Shown: positions 1,015 to 18,301 of the stretch, one piece after another | Layout of the letters: each line of letters opens with the position of its first letter | Position numbering within the stretch: position 1 is the stretch's first letter | IMG/VR virus record: IMGVR_UViG_3300032182_000321 | Span: 1 to 25,638 of that record | Reading direction: 5' to 3' (one strand) | Length of the DNA stretch: 25,638 nt | Origin: a virus | The notes under the pieces: generated by a model | What the model saw: the letters and a program-made list of their open reading frames with translations, nothing else | What the model was told of the DNA's origin: nothing | Database searches by the model: none | Position numbers and translations under genes: made by a program

Positions 1015-1845
1015 TTATCCGATCATGTCCATAGGTGGGAGTGAGTAATCTGTCATCATTCTTGACTCCAGTTCCTTCACTTCATTGTTACCATCTTCCC
1101 AGATCTGACGACCGTTGAGTGTGACACCACCAGGAAGTTGAACTGCGTTATACTTGATTAGGTTTTGTCCCCACTGTCTCTTCAGTAGAGCAGTAGCATA
1201 TTTTTTGACAAAACTGTCATTATATACCTGAGTGAACTCAGTAGGATCAAGATAACGATGGCAATCAATGAGTAGATATTGATCCTCTACAATCCTTGAC
1301 TTATCGATATCAATATAAAGACGATCTTGTCTCTTGTTAAATCTATACTCAATGAAAGCACCTGTATTGATAATCATATCAATAGTTTCAAAGTGCTGCT
1401 TGATCATGTAGTAGTTTGTCAGATCAAAGTTACCAAAACTAAATGCAGAACCTGATGAGAATGAGAACAGGTCCATCAAATAGTATTGGTTGCTCATACC
1501 AAACAAGTTGTTCCTCATAAAGTTTGAGGAGACACCAAAGACTTTGGAAACACCAATAACTGCATCAGGGACTTCGATGTAGTTGTTTCGGTTTTCCCAT
1601 GCGTCTGCGTTTGGTGCAGCACTTGCCTCATCTGATGAGTCAAATCTGGTTACGTCGGCAGCAGTAAACTTGTGCTTGAGATACATCCTCTCCACACCAT
1701 CGAAATGATATTCGTGGTAATACTGAATTGCCTGATCAATGATATCATCTGTTTGCTCGTCTGCAACATTAATCTGCAGCACTGGAGCACCCAGTTGACG
1801 TTTGCAATAATCAATTAATTCTTGCTTTGTTGCTGGTGAAGCCAT
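1015..1845 (-). CDS. gp13: Neck protein gp13
   Basis: T4 gp13 homologue, a 276-residue head-completion protein that forms the neck with gp14 (T4 gp13 is 309 residues). The N-terminus (MASPATKQELIDYCKRQLG, then a segment with APVLQINV and YYHEYHFDGVERMYLKH) is the characteristic cyanomyovirus gp13 opening. It continues with YRFNKRQDRLYIDID in the middle and ends ELESRMMTDYSLPPMDMIG. ATG at 1845-1843 is the only sensible in-frame start; no good Shine-Dalgarno lies within 15 bases. A late-promoter motif sits about 30 bases upstream inside a terminator hairpin, so gp13-gp14 probably form their own late transcript. The stop is one base from the gp14 start. Confidence 0.93.
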   Translation of the reverse strand: MASPATKQELIDYCKRQLGAPVLQINVADEQTDDIIDQAIQYYHEYHFDGVERMYLKHKFTAADVTRFDSSDEASAAPNADAWENRNNYIEVPDAVIGVSKVFGVSSNFMRNNLFGMSNQYYLMDLFSFSSGSAFSFGNFDLTNYYMIKQHFETIDMIINTGAFIEYRFNKRQDRLYIDIDKSRIVEDQYLLIDCHRYLDPTEFTQVYNDSFVKKYATALLKRQWGQNLIKYNAVQLPGGVTLNGRQIWEDGNNEVKELESRMMTDYSLPPMDMIG

Positions 1846-1856
1846 GCATCTAGATA

Positions 1857-1890
1857 CAAAAAGTCCCTACCTGTATTTATCAGGCAGGGA
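1857..1890 (-). terminator. Intrinsic terminator after the 62-aa gene
   Basis: Read on the minus strand, TCCCTGCCTG and CAGGTAGGGA form a 10-bp stem with a single G-T wobble around the 7-base loop ATAAATA, followed by CTTTTTG. The stem begins 8 bases after the 62-aa gene's TAA. Stem length, G+C content and the U-run make this the clearest rho-independent terminator in the window. Its loop contains a late-promoter motif (see next entry). Confidence 0.88.
1874..1881 (-). promoter_or_regulatory. Late-promoter motif GATAAATA before gp13
   Basis: GATAAATA on the minus strand matches the T4 late promoter (TATAAATA) in seven of eight positions. It lies about 30 bases upstream of the gp13 ATG. It occupies the loop and first stem base of the terminator, so one short element seems to end the upstream transcript and start the gp13-gp14 transcript. 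Confidence 0.6.
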
Positions 1891-1898
1891 ACTAGGGG

Positions 1899-2087
1899 TT
1901 ATTCTGCTGGAGCTTCTGCTGGTGCGTCTTCTTCTTTAGGATTGAGAAGATCTAGTGTTTCCAGTCCACCTTGCAACTTAAGTTTATATTCTCTTGCTTT
2001 ATTAAGATTAGATTCTAGGTCAGCAATTTGCTTGTCTGTTGTAGCAATTTGCTCTTCAAAATTCTTTCTCAGTTCAGTTGTATCCAT
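1899..2087 (-). CDS. Small coiled-coil protein, conserved beside gp13 in cyanomyoviruses
   Basis: 62 residues from ATG at 2087-2085: MDTTELRKNFEEQIATTDKQ, then IADLESNLNKAREYKLKLQG and an acidic Ala/Pro/Glu tail (PKEEDAPAEAPAE). The body is one amphipathic helix with heptad-like Leu/Ile spacing, so a dimeric or trimeric coiled coil is likely. A longer form could start at GTG 2096, but the late-promoter motif at 2115-2122 would then leave almost no leader, so I prefer the ATG. It has its own promoter motif and its own terminator, so it appears to be a monocistronic late gene. I recall similar short proteins next to gp13 in cyanomyoviruses; function unknown. Confidence 0.8.
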   Translation of the reverse strand: MDTTELRKNFEEQIATTDKQIADLESNLNKAREYKLKLQGGLETLDLLNPKEEDAPAEAPAE

Positions 2088-2114
2088 GGTAATCACATTG
2101 AATGACGTGTGTAT

Positions 2115-2122
2115 TATTTATC
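2115..2122 (-). promoter_or_regulatory. Late-promoter motif GATAAATA before the 62-aa gene
   Basis: GATAAATA on the minus strand, the same octamer and flank (CTGATAAATA) as the one before gp13. It overlaps the TGA stop of the upstream 325-aa gene (2123-2121) and lies 28 bases before the preferred ATG at 2087. Confidence 0.6.
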
Positions 2123-3098
2123 AGACATATCTGACAGCAAAATAGAATCCATATTGCGTAGTGCTTGTATTAGATGCACTACCCCAAAAGAAGTCATCAA
2201 CGGCATCACCACCGTTTCTGTTTTCACAACCATATGCCTGAGAAGATCCCTGACTCAAATATGGACCACCGTTGCCATCCAGTCTGCTAGCACCAATTCT
2301 AAATCCCCAGCATCCGTCGTCAGCAGCGAATCTGCTAGAGGTATAATAACCATTGCTATTTGGTTGCTGGTTATCGGAATAGATTGTTGATGTGTTTCCA
2401 GAATCATCAACTACTTCACTGCCATCTGCGTTCAAAACATACCCATAGAGATTTCTATTCTGGTTGGGACTGAAGAAATTCTTCAAAGCAGTTCCAGTGC
2501 TATAATCTCTATAGATTTGCAAAGCAACTCCTTCATAACCATTGGGACCAAAACCAGCAAAAATCATGTATGGATATCCATTTAGAGTTCCATTGTCTAA
2601 TCCTGAGGTTAGTTCAATTTCTGTTCCAGAATCAAACTCAGATGAATTAAATTGACGTAGACTACTAATATCACTAGTTCCACTTTGAGATTCTGCCATA
2701 CCATTGTATGCTGGTGTAGCAATCAATGTAAATCCTAGAGATTCAAACTCACCCTTGATACTAGAAACTTGATCGTATGTATAAGAAGAAAGAGTAGCAT
2801 TAAGTTGTTCGAGATCACTCTTAAGACCTGCTCCTCCAGTCAATGTTCCATCATATGTTCCCCACAGTGGAGCATTGTCAAATGGATCAATTCCGTAGTA
2901 AACTTCCAAAGTTACTGTTTCGGAGTTATAACCAATTTGACCAATTGTAGGACTGGTAGGTCTTGTTGCAGTAGTCCATGTCTCAAATACCAATCCAGGA
3001 GGATTGTATCCCTGAGGAAAATTGATAGTGTTTCCTGAGATGTTGAAGATAGTATCTCCAGCAACTGTCTGTAGTTGATCTGCTCTAATATTACTCAT
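2121..3098 (-). CDS. Adhesin-like virion protein, second paralogue (325 aa)
   Basis: 325 residues, probably a fibre tip or other surface-exposed virion protein; exact role unknown. Residues 1-90 are the N-terminal module shared with the 96-aa and 329-aa proteins (YNPPGLVFETW, RPTSPTIGQIGYNSE, LEVYYGID), a pattern like the G.IRYNT...LEVYNG.W repeat of phage fibres. Residues 95-145 include a short helical stretch, then FTLIATPAYNGMAESQ. Residues 237-325 are nearly identical to the upstream paralogue, with conserved cysteines in DDGCWGFRIG and AYGCENRNGG and a glycine-rich DGNGGPYL. The aromatic end GFYFAVRYV is typical of a closing beta strand. The start lies 6 bases after the 329-aa gene, with only a weak A-rich leader, so co-translation is likely. 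Confidence 0.85.
   Translation of the reverse strand: MSNIRADQLQTVAGDTIFNISGNTINFPQGYNPPGLVFETWTTATRPTSPTIGQIGYNSETVTLEVYYGIDPFDNAPLWGTYDGTLTGGAGLKSDLEQLNATLSSYTYDQVSSIKGEFESLGFTLIATPAYNGMAESQSGTSDISSLRQFNSSEFDSGTEIELTSGLDNGTLNGYPYMIFAGFGPNGYEGVALQIYRDYSTGTALKNFFSPNQNRNLYGYVLNADGSEVVDDSGNTSTIYSDNQQPNSNGYYTSSRFAADDGCWGFRIGASRLDGNGGPYLSQGSSQAYGCENRNGGDAVDDFFWGSASNTSTTQYGFYFAVRYV
2181..2390 (-). repeat. Duplicated C-terminal domain, copy B
   Basis: Encodes residues 237-306 of the 325-aa protein. It corresponds to 3165-3374 in the neighbouring gene. The first 45 residues (STIYSDNQQPN to DGNGGPYL) and the last 19 (AYGCENRNGG...DDFFWG) are identical; only about six residues between them differ. 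DNA differences in the conserved parts are mostly silent, and there are two perfectly identical runs of 26 bases. Confidence 0.93.
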
Positions 3099-3104
3099 GA
3101 TTTT

Positions 3105-4094
3105 TTATACTTTTTTGATACAGAAGTAGAAACCATATGATGTTGTGCTAGTATTTGTAGCATTGCCCCAGAAGAAGTCATCAACAGCGTCACCGCCGTT
3201 TCTGTTTTCACAACCATATGCATTAGATGTATTATCTTGTAGATATGGACCACCGTTACCATCTAGTCTAGATGCACCGATTCTGAATCCCCAGCATCCG
3301 TCATCAGCAGCAAATCTACTAGAGGTGTAGTATCCATTGCTATTTGGTTGCTGGTTATCAGAATAGATTGTTGATTGTCCTGTAGCTGCTTCTCTTTCGG
3401 TTCCATCCGCATTGATAACCATCACAGCAAGATTTCTATCTTGGTTTGGAGAGAAGAAATTTTTCAGATATGTGCCGCTACCATAGTCTCTGTAACCTTG
3501 GAAAGCAATACCTTCATAACCATTAGGACCAAAACCAGCAAAGATCATTCCTGGCATATTATTAAGTCCATTGTTAGAGAATCCACTACTCAATTCAATT
3601 TCATTGTTTCCATCAAACTCAGATGAATTAAATACACCCAAACTACTAATTGCACTGGTAGTGCCACCTTGAGATTCTGCCATACCATTATAGGTTGGAG
3701 TAGCAATTAGTGTATAACCATATGCTTCAAATTCTGCTCTAATTTGAGAGACTTGACTATAACTGTAACTTGCAAGAGCACTGTTAAGGTTAACCATATC
3801 ATTATATGTGCTAACTCCACCAAATCTAACTTTGGTTGGTAGTTTAAACCATATAGGATTACCACTGTTAGGATCAACACCTGCATAAAATTCTGCTTGC
3901 CTTCGGTCCATATTGTATCCCATACTATATGGGATCAAATTAGTAGTAGGACGATTATCTGCATCTGCCCAAGTAGGTAGAACAAATCCACCTGGATCAT
4001 ACGACGCATAAAATTTTGTGGTTCCGTCACTGTTTAGTGTGACCACAAGTTCACTCGCCGTATTTTCTAACGCATTAACTTTAACGGTGCTCAT
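3105..4094 (-). CDS. Adhesin-like virion protein, first paralogue (329 aa)
   Basis: 329 residues, paralogous to the 325-aa gene just downstream. Residues 1-90 are the shared N-terminal module (SYDPGGFVLPTW, DNRPTTNLIPYSMGYN, AEFYAGVDPNSGNPIW). Residues 97-125 are helix-prone (VNLNSALASYSYSQVSQIR). Residues 127-215 contain TLIATPTYNGMAESQ, IFAGFGPNGYEG and YLKNFFSPNQDRN, all shared with the paralogue. Residues 241-310 are the near-identical domain, with Cys267 and Cys295; a third cysteine (Cys325) is absent from the paralogue. ATG at 4094 follows AGGA at 4107-4110 (12-base spacing) and a CTAAATA promoter motif. It lies where T4 carries short-fibre and whisker genes, so host binding is plausible but unproven. 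Confidence 0.85.
   Translation of the reverse strand: MSTVKVNALENTASELVVTLNSDGTTKFYASYDPGGFVLPTWADADNRPTTNLIPYSMGYNMDRRQAEFYAGVDPNSGNPIWFKLPTKVRFGGVSTYNDMVNLNSALASYSYSQVSQIRAEFEAYGYTLIATPTYNGMAESQGGTTSAISSLGVFNSSEFDGNNEIELSSGFSNNGLNNMPGMIFAGFGPNGYEGIAFQGYRDYGSGTYLKNFFSPNQDRNLAVMVINADGTEREAATGQSTIYSDNQQPNSNGYYTSSRFAADDGCWGFRIGASRLDGNGGPYLQDNTSNAYGCENRNGGDAVDDFFWGNATNTSTTSYGFYFCIKKV
3165..3374 (-). repeat. Duplicated C-terminal domain, copy A
   Basis: Encodes residues 241-310 of the 329-aa protein; partner of 2181-2390. High conservation here contrasts with much looser similarity in the first 240 residues of the two proteins. Confidence 0.93.
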
Positions 4095-4101
4095 GTGTTA
4101 C

Positions 4102-4133
4102 GTTATTCCTATTTGACTATTTAGGTTATTCCT
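4102..4133 (-). repeat. 9-bp direct repeat AGGAATAAC flanking a promoter motif
   Basis: AGGAATAAC occurs at 4133-4125, where it includes the stop codon of the 96-aa gene, and again at 4110-4102, where it supplies the AGGA of the 329-aa ribosome binding site. The CTAAATA motif lies between the copies. Confidence 0.7.
4118..4124 (-). promoter_or_regulatory. Late-promoter motif CTAAATA before the adhesin-like pair
   Basis: CTAAATA on the minus strand, one base past the TAA of the 96-aa gene and 24 bases before the ATG of the 329-aa gene. It resembles T4 TATAAATA shortened to the form seen in marine T4-like phages, and would drive both adhesin-like genes. Confidence 0.6.
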
Positions 4134-4416
4134 GACTAGGATTAAATTGGGTTCCTTTAAATACTGCCCAAAGAGCATTGCCCTCATCATCTACGCCGTG
4201 GTAGATTTCTAGTCTGGTTGACTTGCTATTCCAACCAGCAGCACCAATGGGAACTCCTGTGGGTCTGTTATCAGATCCATCCCAAGCAGCAAACGCAAAT
4301 GCGTTAGGTTGATAGGATCCTTGAAATGTGATGGATCCTCCAGCCCCAAACGACATAGCATTATTGCCGCTTGCTGTTTTCCAATTAGTTACTCTTAGTG
4401 TGCTTGACTGACTCAT
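4126..4416 (-). CDS. Single-module fibre protein (96 aa)
   Basis: 96 residues, essentially one free copy of the N-terminal module of the two adhesin-like proteins: FQGSYQPNAFAFAAW, NRPTGVPIGAAGWNSKS, LEIYHGVDDEGNALWAVFKG, then a short tail FNPSQE. It carries no C-terminal domain. The frame is intact, and the gene is tightly packed 11 bases after the 2934-aa gene's stop and followed at once by a promoter motif, so it is probably expressed rather than a decaying remnant. It could be an adaptor joining the large fibre to the tips, or a copy that lost its C-terminal domain. Confidence 0.78.
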   Translation of the reverse strand: MSQSSTLRVTNWKTASGNNAMSFGAGGSITFQGSYQPNAFAFAAWDGSDNRPTGVPIGAAGWNSKSTRLEIYHGVDDEGNALWAVFKGTQFNPSQE

Positions 4417-4427
4417 TGTTTTTTAGA

Positions 4428-7400
4428 TTAGGTAATGATCCAAGTTGCTCCAGAAGCAACCGTAACTTCAAAACCATTGGCAACTGTAATAGGACCAGTT
4501 GAAGATCCATTATTTCCAGTTGGAATAGTTACATCTTCATCGATTGAAGATCTACTGACTTTAATAACACCGTAGGTGTCCAACCACTGCGCTTGACCAT
4601 TAACTTTAATGGTTCCCGTCATGTAGATATCACCTTCAACGTCTAAAGCTTCCTGTGGATCTTTAGCAGAAGAGAAATTGATACCAACTTTCGTTGTTCT
4701 ATAAATGTCAACTAGGTTGGGCGCTTCAGTCCAACGTGACGTTACAAAAGGTGCGTTGTTTTGATAAAGGATGCCATTAATATTTATGTCACCCTGGACA
4801 TTTAGATTGTAGTCTCTATCAACTGGATTAGAAGGATCGCTATTGTCAGTTCCAGAGAAGGCAGTTGTGTTAATACCAACTCTGTTGTTGGTTCCTTGAA
4901 TCGCAAGTGCAGGAGTTGACTTCCAGTCTGTAGCACCTACAGAACCATCGTTAGCGGTAATCTCGAAGATGTCTCCGCCAACAATTCCATTACCAACTCT
5001 AAAGTTGCTTAGATATCCACCAGCACCATCAGATGCTCCAGTTGCACCATAGAAATAAAGTGGAGCATCATCATTATTATCAGTAGTTCCAAGTGTCAGA
5101 CCTGCGATGCCAACAATCATGTTGTCAACTTCAAGACCATTATTGGTTCCGCTGTTCTCAATCTTGAGACCACCATCACCTTGAATGGTTAGTTTGTTGT
5201 TAGAGTTGTTGCGGAAAATGAAGTCTCTATTACTTGCTCTACCGTTAAAGATCCAGTGTGCGCCTTCGCCAGGATGTGTGCTTGCTGCTGCACCAGACGA
5301 GATGAACATCATCGCATGGTCGGCATCATCATAATAAGAACTTCTAGCACCATCAATCAACAATTGATGTCCAGTTGCATTATCAGGACCACTTAGTCTT
5401 AGAGCAGCAATTGTTCCACCAAGAATGTCAAGACCAATACCAGTCGTTAGAGTAGTTCCAACATTGATACCGACAGCTTCTTTAGCAGTATCCACAAGTA
5501 GAGTATCACTATCAACTGCCAAGTTAGCAGCAACAGTAATGTTGCTCAGGAAGTCTGCTCTACCAGAAACTTCTAGTGCCTGGTTAGCAGCAGCAATACC
5601 ACTGATAGTCAAGGAACCAGACATTGTGTCGCCTGCCTTCAGAACGTTGTCTGAAGCAGCACCAGTTAGTGCAGCAGTGATTGTTCCTGCCTCAAAGTCT
5701 CCATTAGCATCACGAATGACACCAGTGCTTACGACATTAGTAGAGTTGAAAGTGATGTTACCAGCGTTCCAGATCTTCTGACCCAAGATGGTCATTCCAT
5801 CTGCATCAGCAACTTTAACTTCCAACAGACCAGAACCATTGGTGTTATTACCACCAGATGCAATAATTGCACTGTTGTAATTTGTTGCTGCAATCTGAGA
5901 AGATCTAAAGTAGATAGAAGGATCAGTTGCTGCCTGACCATCTGCTCTACCAAGTTTCAGTCTAGCATTACCAGCAGAACTCTCTGCAGCAATAACTTCA
6001 TATGTTCCGTCAATTGTGCCATCGCCATTATCATCTAGTTGTGAAACACCATAGTCTTGGAATGCGTATGCGTTTGCAACACCACCTTCACCAATGAAGT
6101 ATGCTACCTGATCTCCGTTAGAATCAATAAAGTCACCAGATGTCAGACTACCAGTGAGAAGTGTGTAGTTGTTAGCGGGATCATTAGCATCTAGGTTAGT
6201 TTCAACTTTAGTAAGAGTAAGTTCGCCTACACCATTACCACCATTATCATACAAGTTGACAGGTAGACCAGCAAGGAAAGGAGCAGCAGAACCAAGAATT
6301 TCGTCACGAACCAAGACAAAGTATCTATCTTGTCCTGTCCAGTCTACAACACTCAATGAATCAAGGATTTTCTTCTTGGTCTGTAGTTCTGGAAGTCTTA
6401 GATCACTGAAGATACCATAGTTGATATGGGTAGCAGTTTGATACCACTTACCCTGACGACCATCCATCATGTCAGCGTCTAGTCCGCTGAGTTCACCGTC
6501 ATTCTGGGAGTGCCAGATCAGGTTCCAGTTACCGAATGGGTTAGCAGGACTTGTATGTGAACCACGCAACCAGAGGTTACCACCTCCAGTCGCTGGAGTG
6601 CCATCTGTAATTGCAAGTTGTCTAACACCACCGAAGGTTGCGTCAAAGTCAGAACCACCATTTCTCATGGTAAGAACCATGTGCCTGGTTCCACCATCAA
6701 AGAGACCATCTGCAGTATTGTTCTTGGTATCAGCAATGATACCTGCAGAGAATTCGTTTGGTGCTGGGTTACCAGTTGGTGATCCAGTAGAAGTTTTCAG
6801 TCTGAGTGTATTACCAGATTGGTTTGCAATACTGATATTGTAGGTTCCAGATAGTCTATCAACAGGCAGAACACCAGCGTTTTGGTTGCTGGAGTTTAGA
6901 TAGAACGAACCTTGTGCGCCGTCCAGGGTGTCAGCGTCGAGACCAGAATCAGGACCCGTGTTAATATCAACAGAACCGTTACCAGCCTGACCAATAACAA
7001 ACTGAGTCTTTCTAAACCTTGCAACACCAAGTGTTCCGTATGCATCACCAGAAGTTGTTAAATCAGTTACTCTGTCAATATCAACCGCAACGTTTGCATA
7101 TTGTCTGAGAACTGTGGTTACCTTAGCAAGTAGAATTAGACCAGATCCAGGTCCAAGTTCAGTTGGAGTAGAAGATACGATAAAGTCAACGTTCTGCTGA
7201 CTGGTATTTTGACCATAGTCTTGACCACCATCAACAATGGTAACGTCAGTAACAACACCACCTGTTGTAATAATGTTAGCTCTTAGACCTACACCATTAC
7301 CACCCGTTAGCGCAACGTTGAAGAAAGGACCAGCATCGAATCCAGAACCGCCGTCTTGGATAACAATTTGATCAACAAATCCACCTTCAGTTTGAGAAGA

Positions 7401-10400
7401 CTCAAATGTTAGAGGAGATGATCCTCTATCAAATTCGATAACGGTTCCAGCAGGAAGTGTTGCTGTCAAGAACTTGTCAATAGTAACGGTTGTCTCGCCT
7501 TCTTCGGTAAGAACGCCACTAATATTAGTGTCTGCTTGAATACCTGTAATTGGTTCAAGTGCATGACCTAATAGGAACTGAGAACTACCTTCAAAGACTA
7601 ATGTAGAAGAACCACTATTAGATTGTTGAGTCAATGCTGCAAAGTATCTTGTCTCTGGACCTTTGATCGTTTGGACTGCAGGTTGATAAGACTGGTCTCC
7701 TCTTAGGAATGTGAACGAGTTTGCAGCACTTTCAACTCCCTGAGCATTAGATGCCAGTCTAGCGGTAGAGATAACACCAGACGTAATGTCAGATGCTGCA
7801 ATCTGGTTAGATGATAGAGATACCCAGTTGTTAGCATTAGATGCTGATGTGTTAACAATACGAGTGATGTCAATAACTTCTGCTGGTAGATCACTGGAAT
7901 CAATTGTATCCGTGTCTTCAATCTTGATGTTATTAACAATATCTCCATATAGTCTACTTTCAATAAGACCAGTAGCAGTTGCTTGTGTTCCAGAACCTGC
8001 AGGTGCAGCAATTGTAATAGTTGGAGGAACTTGATATCCTTTACCTCCAATATATCCATTAGATAGTTCAATAGTAACAATAACAACCTGACCATTAGCA
8101 ATGGTTGTAGTTGCAACAGCAGGAACACCACCTGCCTGCTGATTACCAGTAATGGTAACGATAGGAGGAGTTATATAACCAGATCCACCATCAGTGATGT
8201 TGATCTGATACAGAACACCTTGTCTGTATTCTGTTGCCTGAATCTTACCACCAGTAATGCTACCAGTGAAGATGTCGCCAACGGTGAACTGTAGAGTAGT
8301 GTCAACAGCAAATGCAGCAAACAAACTATCACTATCGTTGTTCAGAATAAACGAAGTATTAGTATCCTGTTGAATCGCGATGTCACCTGCAAGTGCGCCT
8401 TCAATAGAAACTCTTTCTGCTTGGTCCGCAACAGTGTAAACCTGGAAAGGACGTAGAGGTGGAATCTGATCTTCGGAGATCTTGCCAGAGTCAGTAAGTT
8501 CAACCAGTGCTCTAGGAACTGGGTTGGTTGAATATGGTTTGTTGATGTAAGGACCAAGGTTATTAGTGATGAAGTCCTTGACTGCCTTCTGTGTAGGTAG
8601 TTTGCTATCACTGGAGTTAGCACCACCAAGTGTGTTGCTGTTGTCGAAACCAGTAACAACAACGTCACCACCTTTCAGTTTCAAGAATTCAACTTCCGAG
8701 ATGGTAACCGTTCCAGTAAAGGTAATGTTACCTGTTCTGTTTTCAATTCTTGCGAACGTTCCAACCTTGAAGTCGCCAAGTTCGTCAGTTCCAGAAACGT
8801 ATGTTCTACCATAGTTCTCGGAGACTTGCTCGTTTGACTCAACTTTAACACCACCGTTTTCAGGTAGTGCAAGATAGCTAGTTCCAGAACCAGCGTATTC
8901 CCAAGTGTGCGAGGAAGAGTTAACAATAGAAGGTCTATGTAGTCTGACAGTAGCACCAACCAAAGAGGCAAGAGCAACTGGATTGCCAGTTGCAGTCTCG
9001 ATTAGTTCAGCGCCACCACCTGAACCAGACTCAAGAGTAAGTTGAGCAGAGAAAGGAGGACCAACAGTTACTTGATCAACAACATCAACAAAGTATTCGA
9101 TATCTGGATTAAGATTTTCGTAACCGTCGATCTTAACAACATAGTGCTCCAGAGGTTCTCTACCAAGACCACTAACAGAGAGGATTGTTCTACCAGTTGG
9201 TGTTGCAGATACGTTAGTGATTGTTGCAACGTCAAATTCATATGCTTCTTTTCTGAAACCAGTTGCTCTAAGCGCAAAGATACCGAAGTTTGTAGCAGAG
9301 TTGGTGATGGATGCATAACCACCAGTATCAGCGAGAACACCATCAGCACAGAAGATACAGAAGACAGAAACCAACTGAGTATAACCATCTTCAATAATCT
9401 TGTAACCAATACCACCTTCAGAAACAATCGTGAAGGCAGATGCAACCATCGACTTGCCCTGGTTGGGGAACTTAGCAGTTCCCTCAACAGTTAGACCTGG
9501 GAAAGGACAGTTGGGTTGCTTGACCTTAGAACCATCGACCAGAGCACCGTTACCACCAAGCTTAGAGATGATAGAAGAGTTCTGTGTATATGGAGATGCC
9601 TCAATGATTGGGAAATCATCATAGGTTGCTCTTACAGTGACCTTGACTCCATTAGCATCAGTAATTACACTGCTTGCATAGTTGTAGATACCAACAATAT
9701 CGAATAGAGTTCCAGTTGTCTTAGTTGTTGCTCCTACTGCAACAGTCTCTTCTAGAATTTGTTCAAGAAGCAAGAAGGAAGCACTGATTGTAGACTCAAC
9801 ATTAGCACACAATGGATTACCAGTTCCATCAATCAAGATAGAAGTATCAGTAAACTGTGGAATATCTGTATACAAGAATGATACTGCATTTCCAGAACCA
9901 TCCTTCCAATTACGCATTGCTGCGATTGCTAGATCTCTTACTTCGTTGAATGCATAAACAGTAGGTCCAAGTTCACTTGCTGGAATTCCTGTTAGATTTC
10001 CTGCGCCAGAGAAATAAGATTCCGCAGCAGTAACAATTCCAGTATTTCCACCAAGACACAAGTCTCTAATTAGAGCACTGAGAATAAAGTTGATGTCTCT
10101 ACGGCACTTACGCTCGTCAACGTTGTTGAGAGTAAGAGAAGGATATTGAACTCTTGCTGCTTCATATGCTTCATCAGCAATAGCATGTCTATTTCTAGCA
10201 ATTAAGTATGCAGCGTCTAAGTATGTTCCGCTGGCATCATTAGCAAGAACATCAACATACAGATATGCTAGTGTATCAATAGAACTTCTTACATTAGCAC
10301 AAACTTCTCCACCAGAACCATCTTCAATTACAGTATCATCAAAGTATCTGGGGAGCGAAGAATATACTGGAGTGTAAACTGGTTGTCCTACAGAACCATC

Positions 10401-13232
10401 ACCAGTTCTCCACTTTCTCATCGCATAGATGCAAAGTTCGCGAGTATATTCTAACGCACGAACTGTTTGAATAATTTCATTATCGACAAAAGTAATCTCT
10501 GTGTTAGTTCCATCGATATACTTTCTAGCAGCATCAATGACATTATTGTTGCTACCAAATTCTAAGTCAGCAGTAATAGCATTGATGAAGTGCTTAACAT
10601 CTCTACGGCACTTCTCGTCGCTTACAGGAATGTTGAAACTTGGATAAGTTTTCTGTGTAGTGACACCATCAATATCACATTCTACAACTAAACCAGCAAG
10701 TTGAATAGTATCATCTTCTGAAAATACTGGTGCATTATCAATAGTAATGGTTGCTGCACCAGTAACAATGTTATCATAAACAAAGTTTGTAACATTGTAA
10801 GTAGTTCCACTTGAAACATCAGTTACAGTTCCACCACTTACATATGTGTGAATAAATCTGGATGTTCCAAGATAGACCTTAAAGTCAAATCCGCCACCAT
10901 CTCCAATATCATATGGGAAGAAATATTCTTGCTTGAATTCATCATTAATTCTACTTACAACTTCATCTGCAATAAACTCTCTATTGTTTCTGATCTGGTT
11001 TACAGCATCTTGATATCTTCTAGAAATCCAATTTGCTTCTAGGAATTTGTTAGGAGAGTTGAGCAGAGATAGGGTTACAGACTTAGAGTAGTTTGTTACC
11101 TGTGCAAACTGACCAGGATCATAATTGTCATTCGTTAGAGTTGGTGCTTTCTTAGGAATAACGAAACGTCTTGATCTACCATCAGGATCTTCTAGAACCT
11201 TATAGATTCTCTGTTTGCCCATCAGGAATGACAGGTCAGGAGCATTTGTAGAAAGACCAGAGATCTCAATCTCTTGACCTTCTTTAAAGTCGTGAATGTT
11301 GTCTGCTTCTACAAGTGGGTTGGTATAGAAGATGATACCACCAAGATCTTCTTGGACACCATAGTCACCAAAACCACCAGTTGCTACTTCAGCAGTTCCT
11401 TGCTTAGAGAAGTCAATACGTGAAATAGGTAGAACTGAGGTAATGTCTCTGTCTTCAAAAACAACTTCACCTTCTGCTCTAATTGATATAATGTCAGTTG
11501 TGACCAGAGAATATGTATCTCTTACATATGTGAATTCGAGAGTATCTGGTCCGTTACCTGCAGCACCAGTATCGTGAATCGGATTGTCTTCGCCAGATGT
11601 TCCAGAAGCTGTTACCTGATAAACATGATCTTCTGTCCAGACAAATGTATTAAGTGCATAGAAAGTATTTGTTTGGAATCTTTCTGTATTAGGACCACCA
11701 AATACTAGAGTTTCACCAGCATCTACAGAACCAGATACTTGAACAAAATCAAATGTTCCATTGACATAAGCATCATTTCCAGTGGTTGTATTAAAATTAA
11801 CTTGCCTAGTTTCAATAATACCACCAGCATTGACACCTCTAAGTTCCTGACCTGCAGTTAGAGATTGTAGACCACCATTAGATTGGAAAACTGCTTCAAA
11901 AACTGATTCACCAAAAATCTGGTGACCGATTGGGAATGAAGTATCAAAGTCACCATTTACATCGTAGTCATATGTAATTCTTTGCTTGTCGTCAAAGACC
12001 ATTGCAAAGTCCCAAGTTGCAACGGAGAAACCATCCGAGTCAACTTGGTCACGATAGGTAACACCGATGACATAGTTCTTGTCACCGAACTTGAAGATGT
12101 GCTTTCTTGGGTTAGCAGGACGAATGATAACCAGACGCAGGTTGTCACCAACGATAGATGCATCAGGTGGAATGGAGATTGGGTTATCTTCTACATAGTC
12201 ACCACCAGAGATGATGATCGACTCCTTAACACCAGGAGTTGCCCATGCCAACTGACATGCTTTCTTAATTGTTCTAACTGGGTTGACTGCAGAACGACCG
12301 TCATTCTCGTCGTTACCAATCAACTGAGAAACATAGATACGACCACCAACGTCATTCGTTGCTAGGTTGAGGACGTATTCAGTAGTAGCAATCTTGTCAG
12401 ATTTATCACCTAGAATTGGTGTGATAGATCTTGGATAAATACCTGCTTCGCCAGTCTCTCCATAGTAGATTTCATTTTCATCAGATACACGGAAACCAAT
12501 ATGTTTGAACTGAACAGTTCCATTGGTCTCAATACCATCAATATGCAGAGGTGGATTTAATGGACTAGCGTCACTAGTTCCAACATTCAACGATTGGTAT
12601 ACATTAGGACCACGGAAGACAAATGTATCCTTCTGATACAGAGTGTCTGATGCCCAAGGAGTTCCAGTATTATTGATAAACGTCTTGAGATTTGGTGCTC
12701 TAAGATTAGCATCTGGAGTAACAATATTATCAATATCCAGGTTTAGAATTCTCGCCGTGTCTGAAATGATTGACGTAGAAGTTCTGATAGCACCGTTGAT
12801 ATCAAGTTCAAAGTCAACAGAGTCAAGAAATGCAGTTGCGGTTGCACCTAAACCATCTCCACCAGTGATAGTTACACCAGGAGCAGTGGTGTATCCATCA
12901 CCCTGCTGATCAATAATAACAGATCTAATTCTTCCTTCAGAAACAACAGCAGATCCTAGTGCCTGAACACCACCTAAAGGAGGCGGATCGATTTGAACAG
13001 TAGGTTGTTGGGTATATCCTTGACCCTCATTATCGATAACAATCCTATCAACTCTAGATCCAGTTCTGTTAATACCAACACGAGGCAAACCCGTAGAAGG
13101 ATCTGTCAGTGCTCGCATGATTTCGATTTCATTAACTCCAGATCCAGATCTGATAGTTAAGTTTGATTCTCCGATAAGAGCAGGAGAGATCGCCCTGAAT
13201 TGTTCTCTGTCAGAATTAAACTTAAAGCTCAT
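4428..13232 (-). CDS. Giant fibre-like virion structural protein (2934 aa)
   Basis: 2934 residues, a modular extended virion protein of the kind found in cyanomyovirus structural clusters, probably a tail fibre or baseplate-attached adhesin. In order: residues 60-136, two GxGY modules (IVIDNEGQGYTQQPTVQI, VIIDQQGDGYTTAPGVTI); from 297, a beta-helix-like start (GRIYVSQLIGNDENDG) resuming at 1255-1330 (SMVASAFTIVSEGGIGY, GYASITNSATNFGIFALRA); residues 739-1165, a duplicated Cys-containing helical domain; residues 1675-1756 and 1951-2020, more GxGY modules; residues 2098 and 2251, fibre motifs LDADTLDGAQGSFY and LDADMMDGRQGKWY; residue 2531, LKAGDTMSGSLTISG. The C-terminus (TYGVIKVSRSSIDEDVTI to ATWIIT) looks like a fibre end; no S74 chaperone is visible. 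A CTAAATA motif lies 38 bases upstream. Confidence 0.88.
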   Translation of the reverse strand: MSFKFNSDREQFRAISPALIGESNLTIRSGSGVNEIEIMRALTDPSTGLPRVGINRTGSRVDRIVIDNEGQGYTQQPTVQIDPPPLGGVQALGSAVVSEGRIRSVIIDQQGDGYTTAPGVTITGGDGLGATATAFLDSVDFELDINGAIRTSTSIISDTARILNLDIDNIVTPDANLRAPNLKTFINNTGTPWASDTLYQKDTFVFRGPNVYQSLNVGTSDASPLNPPLHIDGIETNGTVQFKHIGFRVSDENEIYYGETGEAGIYPRSITPILGDKSDKIATTEYVLNLATNDVGGRIYVSQLIGNDENDGRSAVNPVRTIKKACQLAWATPGVKESIIISGGDYVEDNPISIPPDASIVGDNLRLVIIRPANPRKHIFKFGDKNYVIGVTYRDQVDSDGFSVATWDFAMVFDDKQRITYDYDVNGDFDTSFPIGHQIFGESVFEAVFQSNGGLQSLTAGQELRGVNAGGIIETRQVNFNTTTGNDAYVNGTFDFVQVSGSVDAGETLVFGGPNTERFQTNTFYALNTFVWTEDHVYQVTASGTSGEDNPIHDTGAAGNGPDTLEFTYVRDTYSLVTTDIISIRAEGEVVFEDRDITSVLPISRIDFSKQGTAEVATGGFGDYGVQEDLGGIIFYTNPLVEADNIHDFKEGQEIEISGLSTNAPDLSFLMGKQRIYKVLEDPDGRSRRFVIPKKAPTLTNDNYDPGQFAQVTNYSKSVTLSLLNSPNKFLEANWISRRYQDAVNQIRNNREFIADEVVSRINDEFKQEYFFPYDIGDGGGFDFKVYLGTSRFIHTYVSGGTVTDVSSGTTYNVTNFVYDNIVTGAATITIDNAPVFSEDDTIQLAGLVVECDIDGVTTQKTYPSFNIPVSDEKCRRDVKHFINAITADLEFGSNNNVIDAARKYIDGTNTEITFVDNEIIQTVRALEYTRELCIYAMRKWRTGDGSVGQPVYTPVYSSLPRYFDDTVIEDGSGGEVCANVRSSIDTLAYLYVDVLANDASGTYLDAAYLIARNRHAIADEAYEAARVQYPSLTLNNVDERKCRRDINFILSALIRDLCLGGNTGIVTAAESYFSGAGNLTGIPASELGPTVYAFNEVRDLAIAAMRNWKDGSGNAVSFLYTDIPQFTDTSILIDGTGNPLCANVESTISASFLLLEQILEETVAVGATTKTTGTLFDIVGIYNYASSVITDANGVKVTVRATYDDFPIIEASPYTQNSSIISKLGGNGALVDGSKVKQPNCPFPGLTVEGTAKFPNQGKSMVASAFTIVSEGGIGYKIIEDGYTQLVSVFCIFCADGVLADTGGYASITNSATNFGIFALRATGFRKEAYEFDVATITNVSATPTGRTILSVSGLGREPLEHYVVKIDGYENLNPDIEYFVDVVDQVTVGPPFSAQLTLESGSGGGAELIETATGNPVALASLVGATVRLHRPSIVNSSSHTWEYAGSGTSYLALPENGGVKVESNEQVSENYGRTYVSGTDELGDFKVGTFARIENRTGNITFTGTVTISEVEFLKLKGGDVVVTGFDNSNTLGGANSSDSKLPTQKAVKDFITNNLGPYINKPYSTNPVPRALVELTDSGKISEDQIPPLRPFQVYTVADQAERVSIEGALAGDIAIQQDTNTSFILNNDSDSLFAAFAVDTTLQFTVGDIFTGSITGGKIQATEYRQGVLYQINITDGGSGYITPPIVTITGNQQAGGVPAVATTTIANGQVVIVTIELSNGYIGGKGYQVPPTITIAAPAGSGTQATATGLIESRLYGDIVNNIKIEDTDTIDSSDLPAEVIDITRIVNTSASNANNWVSLSSNQIAASDITSGVISTARLASNAQGVESAANSFTFLRGDQSYQPAVQTIKGPETRYFAALTQQSNSGSSTLVFEGSSQFLLGHALEPITGIQADTNISGVLTEEGETTVTIDKFLTATLPAGTVIEFDRGSSPLTFESSQTEGGFVDQIVIQDGGSGFDAGPFFNVALTGGNGVGLRANIITTGGVVTDVTIVDGGQDYGQNTSQQNVDFIVSSTPTELGPGSGLILLAKVTTVLRQYANVAVDIDRVTDLTTSGDAYGTLGVARFRKTQFVIGQAGNGSVDINTGPDSGLDADTLDGAQGSFYLNSSNQNAGVLPVDRLSGTYNISIANQSGNTLRLKTSTGSPTGNPAPNEFSAGIIADTKNNTADGLFDGGTRHMVLTMRNGGSDFDATFGGVRQLAITDGTPATGGGNLWLRGSHTSPANPFGNWNLIWHSQNDGELSGLDADMMDGRQGKWYQTATHINYGIFSDLRLPELQTKKKILDSLSVVDWTGQDRYFVLVRDEILGSAAPFLAGLPVNLYDNGGNGVGELTLTKVETNLDANDPANNYTLLTGSLTSGDFIDSNGDQVAYFIGEGGVANAYAFQDYGVSQLDDNGDGTIDGTYEVIAAESSAGNARLKLGRADGQAATDPSIYFRSSQIAATNYNSAIIASGGNNTNGSGLLEVKVADADGMTILGQKIWNAGNITFNSTNVVSTGVIRDANGDFEAGTITAALTGAASDNVLKAGDTMSGSLTISGIAAANQALEVSGRADFLSNITVAANLAVDSDTLLVDTAKEAVGINVGTTLTTGIGLDILGGTIAALRLSGPDNATGHQLLIDGARSSYYDDADHAMMFISSGAAASTHPGEGAHWIFNGRASNRDFIFRNNSNNKLTIQGDGGLKIENSGTNNGLEVDNMIVGIAGLTLGTTDNNDDAPLYFYGATGASDGAGGYLSNFRVGNGIVGGDIFEITANDGSVGATDWKSTPALAIQGTNNRVGINTTAFSGTDNSDPSNPVDRDYNLNVQGDININGILYQNNAPFVTSRWTEAPNLVDIYRTTKVGINFSSAKDPQEALDVEGDIYMTGTIKVNGQAQWLDTYGVIKVSRSSIDEDVTIPTGNNGSSTGPITVANGFEVTVASGATWIIT
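9738..10223 (-). repeat. Helical Cys domain, copy 2 (uninterrupted)
   Basis: Residues 1004-1165 of the 2934-aa protein. Landmarks are YLDAAYLIARNRHAIADEA, YPSL, ERKCRRDINFILSALIRDL, GGNTGIVTAAESY, FNEVRDLAIAAMRNWKDG and PLCANVESTI. The same landmarks occur in the same order in copy 1. Confidence 0.8.
10248..11018 (-). repeat. Helical Cys domain, copy 1 (with inserted segment)
   Basis: Residues 739-995 of the 2934-aa protein. Landmarks are YQDAVNQIRNNREFIADEV, TYPSFNIPVSDEKCRRD, FGSNNNVIDAARKY, LEYTRELCIYAMRKWRTG and EVCANVRSSIDTL. About 93 residues (768-860, nt 10653-10931), rich in Thr, Val and Gly and apparently beta, separate the first helix from the YPSF...KCRRD segment. That spacer is missing in copy 2. 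Confidence 0.78.
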
Positions 13233-13269: not shown

Positions 13270-13276
13270 TATTTAG
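13270..13276 (-). promoter_or_regulatory. Late-promoter motif CTAAATA before the 2934-aa gene
   Basis: CTAAATA on the minus strand in the 49-base gap after the 168-aa gene, 37 bases before the ATG at 13232. The gap also holds an AGG at 13244-13246 as a weak ribosome binding site. No convincing terminator hairpin is present. Confidence 0.6.
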
Positions 13277-13802: not shown

Positions 13803-16800
13803 TACTTTTTGATGATTTGAGAAACTACAGTAATCTCTACGTCATCTCCCGTAGAGAGGTTTGAATCAAGAGTATATGTAATTCTAACTTCTCCTCCAGA
13901 GGTGAAGTCAAAAACAGTGTCGAATAGATTTACTCCTGTAGAAACATTACTTACTTCTGTGTGGAAGATGTCTGTTCCTTTACTTGTGACAGCGTATTCT
14001 ACAAATTCTCTATCACCCGTCGTGATATTATTTGCTACAATTCTAGCAGTGCAAGCAGTCTCAGTAGCAGGATCAAACAATACAGCATCACCTGTATTCA
14101 ATGTTCCTCTTTCAAGATCCGATTTCTTGGTCAAAACTCTAAAGTTGTTCAATTGAACATCTCGCAGTGCTTCGTCTAGCAATCTAATACCACTGAAAGT
14201 TCCAGTTCCATAACCAAGATTAAAGAATACATCTGCATTATTTGTAATTCTTAGAACAGGATCTACAGTAAGACCTGCTGACATACCAAAGTCAAAGTTA
14301 TCCTTGGTTGAATAAAGGAAAGTCTCTGTTGTTGATGTATTATCAAGAGAAGTTGCTAAAGAATCAAATGTAATTGTAGAAGCATTAAAATTAAATGTAT
14401 CACTGATAGTAGATACCAAAGTATCCACATTATCAAAGTTAAGTTCTGAAGATGTCAGTCTCAGTGAAGAAAGACTTTGGTTAATGAAGAACAGAGTATC
14501 TTCGTCAGCACCAGCAGAAGATTCTGCTTTAATTTCTGTATCCTGGTCTACGTCCTTGACGCCTCCTAGACCTCCCCATTGGTTTCCATTGTAACCTTCA
14601 AATTGATTGTCATCAGTATTATATCTGATAGATCCTTGAACAGGATTACCTTTACTGTTGTTATCTCCAACAGGAATTACCAATGATGTTGGGATATCGC
14701 AAACAATTTTCTGACCTGCATTAGGTTGTAGAATTAGATCACTGGTATCTGTAGAAATTTTATTATCACCCAGTCTGAGATCATTATTAATTACTACATC
14801 AGTGAATCCCAGAGGATCGATACGAATCTCTTCAATTTCTTCAAAGATTAGATTTGAAACAGCAGTTGTGAAGTAAGCAAGTTCTGCAGCACCATTTGTA
14901 AATGTATCTCCAGACTGATCATTTGGTTCGTTACCTGTTGTTCCAGTCAGACCGCCTGTAATTACTTCATAGATGTCATTTCTATATTTGACATAATTTC
15001 CTGCTACTACAGGAGAGTTTGCAACCCATTCTGTATATGCAGGAGCAGCAGTATTTGCAGATCTAATCTTCTTAACGTCTACAAATTCTAGATGTTCTTT
15101 GGTAACTTTGATGGTATTTGCTCCATCATTATAGAACCAAAGAATATTATCGTTAGCACCAACAGACAATTCTGCAAGAATTTGTGTATTACCATCAATA
15201 TCTCTCACACCACCAAGTGATGTCCATGATGTATTTTGAGAACTGTAACCCTCATACTGTTGAGTTTCTGTATTAAAACGAATTGCTCCATCATATGAAA
15301 CTGCTTGAATGGGTCTTTCGGCAATAGTTCCTGCTGGAATTACAAGAGCACTGGAAGAATTAATTTTTGTTTGACCAGTGCTAGGTGGACTAAATTCTAA
15401 ATCAAATCCAGGGTTAGAAGAGATTACATTATTTGTAATAGATAGTCTATCATTTACATTAATAGTTCCTGTGGTCTTAATTTCTCCAGTAGTAGCAATG
15501 TCACCAGAAGTATTAGCAATTTGAATTTGATTGCCAATGTTAAAGTTTCCTGCTTTAATATTGATCTCTGCGCCAGCATAAACATCAATTTTATTGACTC
15601 CATTAGTGTCTGCTCTAATTTCATCTACAGTGAAGAATGTTGATTTTGCTATAGGAGCAGTTAGATTGTTAATGTTTCCTGCAGTAAATGTCAGATTTGT
15701 TCCTGTAGAATTAAATGCATCGAGAGTTCCTGTTTCTACATCAGCACTGATCAAAGTGCTTTCTGCGATAGTAATCAAAGTAAACTCTGCACCACTACCA
15801 AAAACTTTTGGGTTATTAAGATCAATTGTATAAGTATTGTCTCCTGTAGATCCTGGAGAAGAACCCATCAATGCATGATTGGGGCAATAAACATATAGAG
15901 GACTAGGTGTAGTATCTGTAACTTCTAGTTCTAGTCCTTCTACAGATCTAGTTACACCAGTTAGGTATTCAACGCCAGCAATTTCTAATTGTGCAGCACC
16001 ACCATTCACTGGCAGATTATCAATAGTGATTGTATTTGCACCAGTGTCAATAGAAACAATCTTTGTTCCTGCAGCAGTAGATCCTCCACCATCAGAAACT
16101 GTGGTAACTTCCATTCCAACTGCAACATTAGAACCAGATAGACTCTCAACAATACTTAGAGTTGTGGATCCTGGAGTAATAGTTGCGTTTACTGTAGTGA
16201 TGTTCCTGGTTCCATCTTTGAATTCGCTTAGAGCAAATACGTGTCCAGATAGAGATGAGTCACTTAAGTCCCATAGATAAGTGTTTCCAGAATACAAAGG
16301 TGTGCCATTCCAGTCACCACTACCATCAATGTTAAATCTAAAAGATGATGTAATAGAACTAACAGTATATGATACACCAACACCAGTTGGGTTCCATGAA
16401 CTTGCTGCTTGAGCACCGCTCACTCCCAAAACTGTGATATCTGTAATATTTCCACCAGAAGAGTTTATAGCAATAACATCTAAAGTTGTTGTTCCAGAGT
16501 CTCCAACAAAATCGATGGTTCCACCAACAGTAGGAGCAAGACCTGATGATACAGGAATAGTTTCTACAGGAACAAGTGTTTCAATGTCTTCTACGAGAAC
16601 TGGAAAGCTAATGGGATTTACAAGATCTGTAGCAGCAACAGTGAGAACGTCTCCTGGGTCATATCCAGAACCACCTGATACAATCGTAAGACTTTCGACT
16701 GCGCCTAGATCACCAACTGTATATTGGAAGTCTTGAGTTGGAACACCATATGCTGGAGTAAAGGTCAATGTAGCAGTTCCTGCTTGTGTAGGAACCGCAG

Positions 16801-18301
16801 ACAGTTGCAATGTAGTTCCATCAACAATAGTTTGAACTGTAACACCCGTGCCTAGAACACCAGTTCCTGCAGTTTGAGAAACAAGAAAACCTACTGAAAT
16901 ATTAGATGTATCTGCAACAGTAATTTCGTCTAGGTTGTTAACATCAGATGCAAAGTCAAGAGTAGCAGTAGCGTTTGTAGAAGCAGCTGCTTGTGACAAC
17001 TCAATAGTTGTAGAGTTAGTGACTGATGCAACTGTTGTTCCTTCCAGAACTTCTCCACCATTAACAGTCATGCCCTGAAGGATGCCTGTAGTAGAGGCAA
17101 GTGTTACAGTCGTAGAACCAGAAGTAACGTTAGCAGTAGCTTGTAATTGACTTGATAGATTACTAGAAATACCAGTTAATGGTCCAGGTAGTGTCAATAC
17201 GTCATTAGGTTGATACCCAGTTCCTTTTGAATCGAAAGTAAGTCCTGTAATACCACCAGGAAAACTTGTTACTTGGAATTGTGGTGCTGTTCCTGATGCA
17301 TTTCCTAAATCTGTAGCACTAACAGATAGAGTATCTCCATTTCTGTATCCTTGCCCTTCAGCAGTAATTGTGATGCCAGTTACTACACCTGTGATATCAA
17401 CGGTATCAATTCTAAAAGCAAAGTTACTACCACCGCCACCACCAACGTTAGCATCATCAACACCCAAGATATCTCCTACTTGGTAACCAGTTCCAGGGAA
17501 AGTAATAGCAACCTGAGTGACTACTCCTCCACTAATGTCAACTGTTCCGAGAATATCAGTGTTAGGACCACTACCACCTGTTAGTGGAGTATCCGCATAC
17601 GAACCATCAGCATATCCAGATCCAGCATTTGTAATGGTTCCTGTAATAGTTGTAGGACCAGTAACAACAACATCTGCTTCTGCACCACTACCAGTTCCAC
17701 CAGTTAGAGAAACACTATAAACTGCTTCTACTAGATTAGCACCAGTATTCTGAATCGCTACAACAATACCAGGAACACCAAAAGATACAATTGCTCCCGA
17801 ACCATTACCACCCGACAAATTTGCAGTAAAGTCACCAGGAAGGTAATCAATACCTTCTTGAGTTACGGTTCCTAGGTATTCTGTGACAACAATATCAGCA
17901 GTTCCGAAAAAACCTGTTCCCCCATCAAAGGGAACGTTAGTAAAAGTTCCAACATCATATCCTGTTCCAGGATTAGAAATAGACGTGCCAGAAGTTTGGA
18001 GAGATTTGTTTTGGACTTGAATGTCCTTGAAGGTGACAAAAGCAGTTTCTCTAATATCTAAGATTCTTTTGGTTCCGCTAACAAAACCAATTGATTTTGC
18101 TTGTGGTTTAAAGATACCAAGAGAAGTGTCAGTCGAAAATGCCAGAGATGGATCAGTCTTTGTTCCATCACCCAGTTTCAACAGACCTGTTTCCAGGTTG
18201 CTACCACCCGCAGAAATCGAGAAGATCTGTGTTCCAATCTGATTGATTTTTTGCCTTTGAGTTTCAAAGGTATCCGTTTTAGCGACGTTAATTGCTGGCA
18301 T
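13802..18301 (-). CDS. Repeat-rich virion structural protein with cupredoxin-like domain (1499 aa)
   Basis: 1499 residues with the opening MPAINVAKTDTFETQRQKIN, which I know from large cyanomyovirus structural proteins. Residues 105-375 are about seven GxGY-type modules (NPGTGYDVGTF, NAGSGYADGSY, FPGTGYQVGD, AEGQGYRNGD, SKGTGYQPND), with another at 531-560. Residues 389-516 hold two copies of a second module (GSTTVTLASTTGILQGMTV...), with a third at 701-776. Residues 652-828 look like a cupredoxin fold with His687, Cys806, His809 and Met812. Residues 946-1083 and 1169-1298 are a tandem repeat built around AIRFNTETQQYEGY and SIRYNTDDNQFEGY. No transmembrane segment is seen. ATG 18301 overlaps the end of the 64-aa gene by 14 bases; AGAGA upstream and a CATAAATA motif could support separate expression. 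Probably a tail or baseplate-associated protein. Confidence 0.88.
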   Translation of the reverse strand: MPAINVAKTDTFETQRQKINQIGTQIFSISAGGSNLETGLLKLGDGTKTDPSLAFSTDTSLGIFKPQAKSIGFVSGTKRILDIRETAFVTFKDIQVQNKSLQTSGTSISNPGTGYDVGTFTNVPFDGGTGFFGTADIVVTEYLGTVTQEGIDYLPGDFTANLSGGNGSGAIVSFGVPGIVVAIQNTGANLVEAVYSVSLTGGTGSGAEADVVVTGPTTITGTITNAGSGYADGSYADTPLTGGSGPNTDILGTVDISGGVVTQVAITFPGTGYQVGDILGVDDANVGGGGGSNFAFRIDTVDITGVVTGITITAEGQGYRNGDTLSVSATDLGNASGTAPQFQVTSFPGGITGLTFDSKGTGYQPNDVLTLPGPLTGISSNLSSQLQATANVTSGSTTVTLASTTGILQGMTVNGGEVLEGTTVASVTNSTTIELSQAAASTNATATLDFASDVNNLDEITVADTSNISVGFLVSQTAGTGVLGTGVTVQTIVDGTTLQLSAVPTQAGTATLTFTPAYGVPTQDFQYTVGDLGAVESLTIVSGGSGYDPGDVLTVAATDLVNPISFPVLVEDIETLVPVETIPVSSGLAPTVGGTIDFVGDSGTTTLDVIAINSSGGNITDITVLGVSGAQAASSWNPTGVGVSYTVSSITSSFRFNIDGSGDWNGTPLYSGNTYLWDLSDSSLSGHVFALSEFKDGTRNITTVNATITPGSTTLSIVESLSGSNVAVGMEVTTVSDGGGSTAAGTKIVSIDTGANTITIDNLPVNGGAAQLEIAGVEYLTGVTRSVEGLELEVTDTTPSPLYVYCPNHALMGSSPGSTGDNTYTIDLNNPKVFGSGAEFTLITIAESTLISADVETGTLDAFNSTGTNLTFTAGNINNLTAPIAKSTFFTVDEIRADTNGVNKIDVYAGAEINIKAGNFNIGNQIQIANTSGDIATTGEIKTTGTINVNDRLSITNNVISSNPGFDLEFSPPSTGQTKINSSSALVIPAGTIAERPIQAVSYDGAIRFNTETQQYEGYSSQNTSWTSLGGVRDIDGNTQILAELSVGANDNILWFYNDGANTIKVTKEHLEFVDVKKIRSANTAAPAYTEWVANSPVVAGNYVKYRNDIYEVITGGLTGTTGNEPNDQSGDTFTNGAAELAYFTTAVSNLIFEEIEEIRIDPLGFTDVVINNDLRLGDNKISTDTSDLILQPNAGQKIVCDIPTSLVIPVGDNNSKGNPVQGSIRYNTDDNQFEGYNGNQWGGLGGVKDVDQDTEIKAESSAGADEDTLFFINQSLSSLRLTSSELNFDNVDTLVSTISDTFNFNASTITFDSLATSLDNTSTTETFLYSTKDNFDFGMSAGLTVDPVLRITNNADVFFNLGYGTGTFSGIRLLDEALRDVQLNNFRVLTKKSDLERGTLNTGDAVLFDPATETACTARIVANNITTGDREFVEYAVTSKGTDIFHTEVSNVSTGVNLFDTVFDFTSGGEVRITYTLDSNLSTGDDVEITVVSQIIKK
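14408..15466 (-). repeat. Two-copy internal repeat of fibre-like module in the 1499-aa protein
   Basis: Residues 946-1083 and 1169-1298 align throughout: FDLEFSPPSTGQTKI with SDLILQPNAGQKIV, SALVIPAG with TSLVIPVG, GAIRFNTETQQYEGY with GSIRYNTDDNQFEGY, LGGVRDIDGNTQI with LGGVKDVDQDTEI, and GANDNILWFYNDG with GADEDTLFFINQS. The IRYNT...FEGYNG core also resembles the N-terminal module of the 96/329/325-aa proteins. Confidence 0.85.
15818..16348 (-). other. Cupredoxin-like domain with complete-looking metal ligand set
   Basis: Residues about 652-828 of the 1499-aa protein: FRFNIDGSGDWNG, TYLWDLSDSSLSGHVFALS, FKDGTRN, then after an insert EYLTGVTRSV and PLYVYCPNHALMGSSPG. His687 plus Cys806-x2-His809-x2-Met812 are the His, Cys, His, Met set of a blue-copper (type 1) site. 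Related phage proteins carry a similar pattern ending Y.C.NH.GMGG. Whether metal is bound is inference. Confidence 0.6.
17177..17989 (-). repeat. Array of GxGY beta modules in the 1499-aa protein
   Basis: Residues 105-375 contain about seven degenerate 30-45-residue units. Each has a V/T-rich strand, a G-x-G-Y turn, a Gly/Asp stretch and a second strand (for example GITITAEGQGYRNGDTLSV). The DNA copies are diverged, so this is an old protein-level repeat. Confidence 0.82.

Follow-up and report, generated by a model that had tools for sequence, protein, structure and literature searches.

The window analysed here, i.e., the whole stretch of 25,638 bases, is a virus record whose source is a T4-like cyanomyovirus. 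On its minus strand, a large open frame is followed by genes for a 1499-aa virion structural protein homologue (PHROG 6005), a 168-aa virion protein (PHROG 5449), a 2934-aa fibre, the three proteins of the array described below, a 65-aa ORF, and gp13. The gene located directly upstream of the array (4428..13232, minus strand) encodes the giant tail-fibre protein (PHROG 5342 "tail fiber protein", 4375 bits), which is the likely partner of the array proteins. At the gp13-side end of the cassette lies the 65-aa ORF (1899..2096, minus strand; PHROG 580, E=2e-21, for which PHROG gives no function), and the flank is marked by a gp13-like neck protein (head-tail adaptor Ad2; 1015..1845, minus strand; PHROG 211, E=5e-45) that is 96% identical to gp13 of S-H9-2. 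DNA similarity to isolated cyanophages spans gp14, gp13, and the 65-aa ORF, and ends at the start of the array, which is therefore a variable island beside a conserved flank. A terminator-like stem-loop with a T run (1864-1890, minus strand) is situated between the 65-aa ORF and gp13, and is possibly where the cassette transcript ends. The T4-late-promoter-like heptamer, CTAAATA, is found a short gap before the 329-aa gene (4118-4124, minus strand) and before the fibre gene (13270-13276, minus strand). It occurs three times in the window, no more than expected by chance, and was rejected as a late-promoter signal.

An earlier note on this DNA had described a three-gene array at 2121-4416, and the ORFs are indeed located there, all on the minus strand. 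The rank-1 gene (4126..4416) encodes 96 aa, the rank-2 gene (3105-4094) 329 aa, and the rank-3 gene (2121-3098) 325 aa. The two longer proteins begin with an N-terminal module that comprises approximately residues 1-95 of the 329-aa protein (3810..4094, minus strand; profile E=5.9e-22) and residues 1-90 of the 325-aa protein (2829..3098, minus strand; profile E=4.1e-25, with AlphaFold2 strands between residues 8 and 82). Each extends ~235 residues beyond the module, into a C-terminal tip of type A that was delimited by protein alignment (3105..3809 in rank 2 and 2121..2828 in rank 3, both minus strand). The 96-aa protein is, as had been proposed, the module alone, without a tip. The note had also stated that the three proteins share the same first ~90 residues. 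The module is homologous, given that the 325-aa protein, used as a query against the window's own record, retrieved the 96-aa protein at E=2.6e-12, but it is not identical (36% over residues 2-86). The pattern given in the note (Y.P..F...W....RPT...IG..GYNS....LE.Y.G.D...N.LW) is close to the ten columns that are invariant in a 13-sequence alignment (P, W, R, P, G, N, E, G, D, and W).

An iterated module profile converged at 74 domains among the loci fetched, and all three window proteins match it with E-values of 6e-22 to 4e-25. In array proteins, the matching segment spans residue 1 to ~90, and members beyond the array are nearly all found in fibre-adjacent cassettes of cyanophage loci. Two internal module copies are also found in the 1499-aa virion structural protein homologue, at residues 955-1031 (15209-15439, minus strand) and 1180-1247 (14561-14764, minus strand). 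In agreement with the view that the extra ~235 residues have no recognised family, none of 24736 Pfam models matched any of 27 aligned members below E=0.03. A sequence search of the PDB with the module gave no match, nor did tblastn of the 325- and 96-aa proteins against 50,697 phage records. The isolates discussed below were therefore reached by synteny and profile. A single-sequence IMG/VR search with the 96-aa protein found no relative, and its relatives in that collection were obtained by an alignment-based search.

Rank-specific modules and the module-only gene

The order of fibre gene, module-only gene (100-101 aa), and two long genes is also found in seven other IMG/VR loci (L001-L003, L023-L025, and L033). 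Another candidate relative, L006, was discarded as an unrelated contig. A tree of 24 modules resolves each rank as a single clade, with support of 98/97 (rank 1), 93/92 (rank 2), and 80/76 (rank 3), and when rank labels were shuffled on this tree, none of the shuffled sets scored as low as the real labels. The three modules therefore split before these phages diverged, and have since stayed in rank. Each rank holds its own module lineage, and the bases look specific rather than interchangeable. Consequently, the proposal that the genes encode interchangeable subunits on a common base needs to be amended: the phylogeny described below agrees with exchangeable tips, but the base is not common to the ranks.

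Each of the eight arrays built like that of the window includes the module-only gene. The rank-1 proteins of the relatives are ~45-52% identical to the window's 96-aa protein, and dN/dS for the rank-1 genes is 0.15-0.41 among close relatives.

Tips and their exchange

Within the window, the rank-2 and rank-3 tips are ~73% identical, whereas their modules are ~35% identical (first 80 columns). Third codon positions are 0.32-0.35 identical in the modules, which is the level of chance, and mostly 0.5-0.8 identical in the tips. A second tip family, tip B (~190 aa, with the motif SYVTSFGLNQ), is encoded at L033:6314-8057 and L001:2020-2880, and the L001 member had no PHROG match. Tips A and B are unrelated, yet both are found on the same ranks, with a rank-2/rank-3 pairing of A/A in the window and L023-L025, B/A in L001-L003, and B/B in L033.

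The rank-3 gene of the window combines two different affinities. Its module is 60-64% identical to those of L023-L025 and 45-48% identical to those of L001-L003, whilst its tip is 61-64% identical to the former and 81-82% identical to the latter. In the tree, the module joins L023-L025 (support 97/98), and the tip falls outside the L023-L026/L004 tip group (97/98) and groups with L001-L003. Comparison of the locus across related phages, which the earlier note had suggested as a check, thus revealed tip swapping, in that the rank-3 module and tip disagree in the tree. Modules cluster by rank and tips do not, which argues that tips have been exchanged onto rank-specific modules; on the evidence of these trees and alignments, the exchange takes place at the border of module and tip. 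Co-evolution of the fibre C-terminus with the modules was tested and was not seen: the C-terminus of the window's fibre is nearer to L001/L033 than to L023-L025, and does not track the module affinities.

Tip A is also found on carriers with different N-termini, a 435-aa protein (L027) and 622-aa proteins (L028-L030). At L028:1511-3379, it forms the end of the 622-aa protein, and the other genes of that contig are unlike those of the cyanophage cassette; tip A has possibly been transferred to another phage group. Tip A patterns were not found in any of 84,980 bacterial and archaeal genomes.

AlphaFold2 modelled the 325-aa protein with a mean pLDDT of 75.6 and a pTM of 0.68, and predicts that the rank-3 tip is an alpha/beta domain (pLDDT mostly 60-94). 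Most structures aligned to modelled residues 88-325 are fibrinogen-like or intelectin, at Z-scores of only 3.0-4.2. The highest fold score, which is also weak, was for a TLDc protein (mEAK7, Z 4.7), and Foldseek returned nothing from the PDB with E<=0.001. The best matches in BFVD are cyanophage proteins named F5/8 type C, sericin-like, collagen NC1-like, and similar, followed by LamG-like and fibrinogen C-terminal proteins. A fibrinogen-like identity for tip A, suggested by the fold comparison, was unsupported by sequence tests and was not adopted: no match to fibrinogen PF00147 was found among the 27 members, whilst an S-CAM4 protein from the same locus does match (1.9e-6), and profile-profile comparison of tip A with phage fibrinogen-like tips gave a probability of 0.2%. 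Searches of PDB sequences with tip A produced weak allophycocyanin matches alone (best E=0.06), which we took as chance. The model of the tip-B protein of L001 is poor (pLDDT 50), and is usable only for its strand order, which repeats that of the module.

Related cassettes in other cyanophages

Six isolates, S-PM2 (genes 092-094), S-H9-2, Syn1, S-RIM32, S-CAM4, and Sf-CH11, resemble the window in carrying the module within approximately residues 1-90 of proteins encoded in a variable interval adjoining gp13. They differ from it in having one to three such genes, in their fibrinogen-like, laminin-G-like, or glycine-rich tips, and in that no module-only gene was seen. Pfam matches of these tips include Laminin_G_3 (E down to 3e-16), Fibrinogen_C (2e-6), and Gly_rich_2 (4e-15). 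Interspersed among the adhesin genes of isolates, or located after them, are small genes of 104-122 aa (L007:16547-16915 and 17849-18178; L008:16258-16623; L017:8229-8585; L018:7613-7927), whose products could be fibre assembly chaperones. In S-RIM8 (L020:560-5980) and ACG-2014g (L021:864-5978), a single giant protein of 1806 and 1704 aa, respectively, is encoded directly before gp13 in place of an array, and starts with an Mtd_N domain (PF18454).

The products of S-PM2 genes 092-094 are labelled virion structural proteins in the record, and virion labels in that genome series are partly based on proteomics of S-PM2, Syn9, and S-SM1 (PMC3037559). By gene order and length, S-PM2 092/093 correspond to S-PM2d089/090 in the record of the deletion mutant S-PM2d. 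The latter acquired a series of SNPs early in chemostat coevolution, which were partly reverted later (PMC9910659). For the tips encoded by this gene pair, Pfam gave Fibrinogen_C at E=0.0023, short of the curated cut-off, and Laminin_G_3 at 1.4e-12. Counting against a virion role, the virion proteome of S-SM1 was also measured (PMC3037559), and yet its cassette genes, 044-049, are annotated as hypothetical only.

Cassettes of the same kind are located behind a different fibre gene in S-SM1, S-TIM4, S-RIM12, P-RSM1, P-RSM4, and S-MS29. In S-SM1, S-TIM4, S-RIM12, P-RSM1, and S-MS29, ordered module genes come after the fibre gene, some of them module-only, with rank-specific clades as in the window; the fibre gene, the place in the genome, and the tips (fibrinogen-like or glycine-rich) are different, and the first product consists of a module and sequence like the C-terminal end of the window's fibre. 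Ranks in these five phages were designated q1 to q5. The q1, q2, and q3 modules form clades with support of 100/100, 98/94, and 97/97, respectively; q4 forms no clade, and the q5 clade is weak (77/65). In S-SM1, gp13 is >60 kb from the cassette, and we therefore conclude that the cassette is linked to fibre genes, and not to gp13.

This linkage bears upon another reading, in which the array would supply short fibres of the baseplate or neck and stand in for T4 gp12 or whisker fibritin in cyanophages; we consider it unlikely. The window's order of fibre, array, 65-aa ORF, and gp13 would suit it, and replacements are to be expected given that cyanomyoviruses have no recognisable wac, g10, g11, or g12 (PMC2984593). 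However, the cassettes of all six phages follow a fibre gene, with that of S-SM1 far removed from gp13, no credible match was found among the Pfam models, and the swapping of fibritin C-termini is described as ancient and ended (PMC3797505), unlike that of the tips described here. The earlier note had placed the array where T4 carries its short-fibre and whisker genes; this agrees with the gene order in the window, but not with the cassettes of the other clades, and the analogy to gp12 and whiskers is unsupported.

The q2 rank is module-only in S-SM1, S-RIM12, and P-RSM1 (76, 86, and 89 aa) and tip-bearing in S-TIM4 and S-MS29, whilst q3 is module-only in S-SM1 alone among the five phages. That q2 relatives differ exactly in the presence or absence of a tip is what one would expect if only the tip-bearing genes matter, and the 96-aa gene is a former third adhesin gene that lost its tip by deletion and is now decaying. 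We nevertheless regard such decay as quite improbable, because the gene has been kept in eight of eight arrays with the identity and dN/dS values given above, and because module-only genes persist in three isolates of other clades. These independent occurrences strengthen the suggestion, itself consistent with the findings, that the 96-aa protein may be an adaptor or cap.

Within the cassettes or next to them, annotations of 2OG-Fe(II) oxygenases, ferrochelatases, and tryptophan halogenases are frequent (L016, L018, L008, L017, L040, L041, and L047), and these enzymes possibly modify the fibre, the tip, or the host surface.

A probable multi-subunit adhesin of the tail fibre

Mtd, the major tropism determinant of a Bordetella phage, and TSP3 of phage CBA120 are receptor-binding proteins that form trimers. 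Residues 38-83 of the modelled module superpose on TSP3 residues 583-623 (Z 5.3, rmsd 1.8 over 41 residues, a weak match), a region near the C-terminus of TSP3 that is not part of its XD domains. Approximately residues 36-84 superpose, also weakly, on the N-terminal region of Mtd (Z 3.8-4.5, rmsd 2.5-2.6 over 44 residues). Unlike Mtd, the window module had no match to Mtd_N (PF18454) in Pfam searches, and hhalign of the module with two phage Mtd_N sequences gave a probability of 1.4% from shallow profiles.

Based on these observations, we consider it probable that the array encodes an adhesin set of several subunits, which accompanies the tail fibre, has exchangeable tips, and retains a tipless subunit. 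The three proteins would be subunits of a host-recognition (adhesin) assembly of the fibre encoded upstream. We infer that the ~90-residue module is a small beta-rich assembly domain that would dock each subunit, probably as a trimer, on the fibre or on a neighbouring module. Because the module lineages differ from rank to rank, the docking places probably do so as well. The exchangeable receptor-binding tip, which recombines between ranks and phages, would be the C-terminal domain of 235 residues. The 96-aa protein would serve as a subunit without a tip, kept since assembly needs its module.

One could argue that neither the small proteins nor the modules belong to the virion, and that they instead assist fibre folding as chaperones or cap the fibre. 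Small extra genes adjoin adhesin genes in many phages, among them S-H9-2, Syn1, and S-RIM32 at this very locus, but most members carry the module in frame with a tip, and the 1499-aa protein has it internally. A structural domain fits better, which makes a chaperone role highly improbable.

The presumptive adhesin set has precedents. In T-even phages, adhesin genes lie directly behind the distal fibre gene (gp37/gp38). As in the window, their tips are shuffled by recombination (PMC3797505); unlike the window, gp38 is a single adhesin and there is no set of paralogues with a common N-terminal module. Another parallel is the receptor-binding protein cluster of the Ackermannviridae (tailspikes TSP1-4 of CBA120, and S117), in which N-terminal assembly domains are conserved by subunit and C-terminal binding domains are recombined. 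These tailspikes are joined via their N-terminal domains into a branched complex (PMC8825819), and an engineered Ackermannviridae phage carries one tailspike reduced to its N-terminal assembly domains (PMC11414711). However, Ackermannviridae assemble through the gp10-like XD2/XD3 domains of TSP2 and TSP4, for which the window proteins gave no Pfam match, whereas each subunit of the cyanophage cassette has one small module, whose fold seems to be different, and tipless subunits are widespread there in nature.

A more specific version of the adhesin model, which we put forward tentatively and think rather doubtful, is that the ranks are fixed places in an ordered hetero-assembly at the fibre, with each module having its own site and the bare module being an obligatory placeholder. 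If so, a tip at any rank can be carried, lost, or exchanged, but the module must stay, and marine cyanophages would show a head of several adhesins, with tipless modules occupying the slots that lack a tip.

To our knowledge, T4-like cyanophages have no recognisable T4 gp12, gp34, gp37, or whisker genes, and as a consequence, the recognition of Synechococcus and Prochlorococcus by these phages is poorly known. The present analysis offers a concrete, alignable cassette, a profile with which it can be recognised in different clades, and a rule open to testing, namely that modules keep their rank and tips move. It also singles out S-PM2d089/090, two genes already known to mutate under coevolution with the host, and would account for short ORFs (76-101 aa) next to fibre genes, annotated as "hypothetical", as structural parts. 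The occurrence of this layout in many related viruses suggests how host-recognition parts are exchanged.
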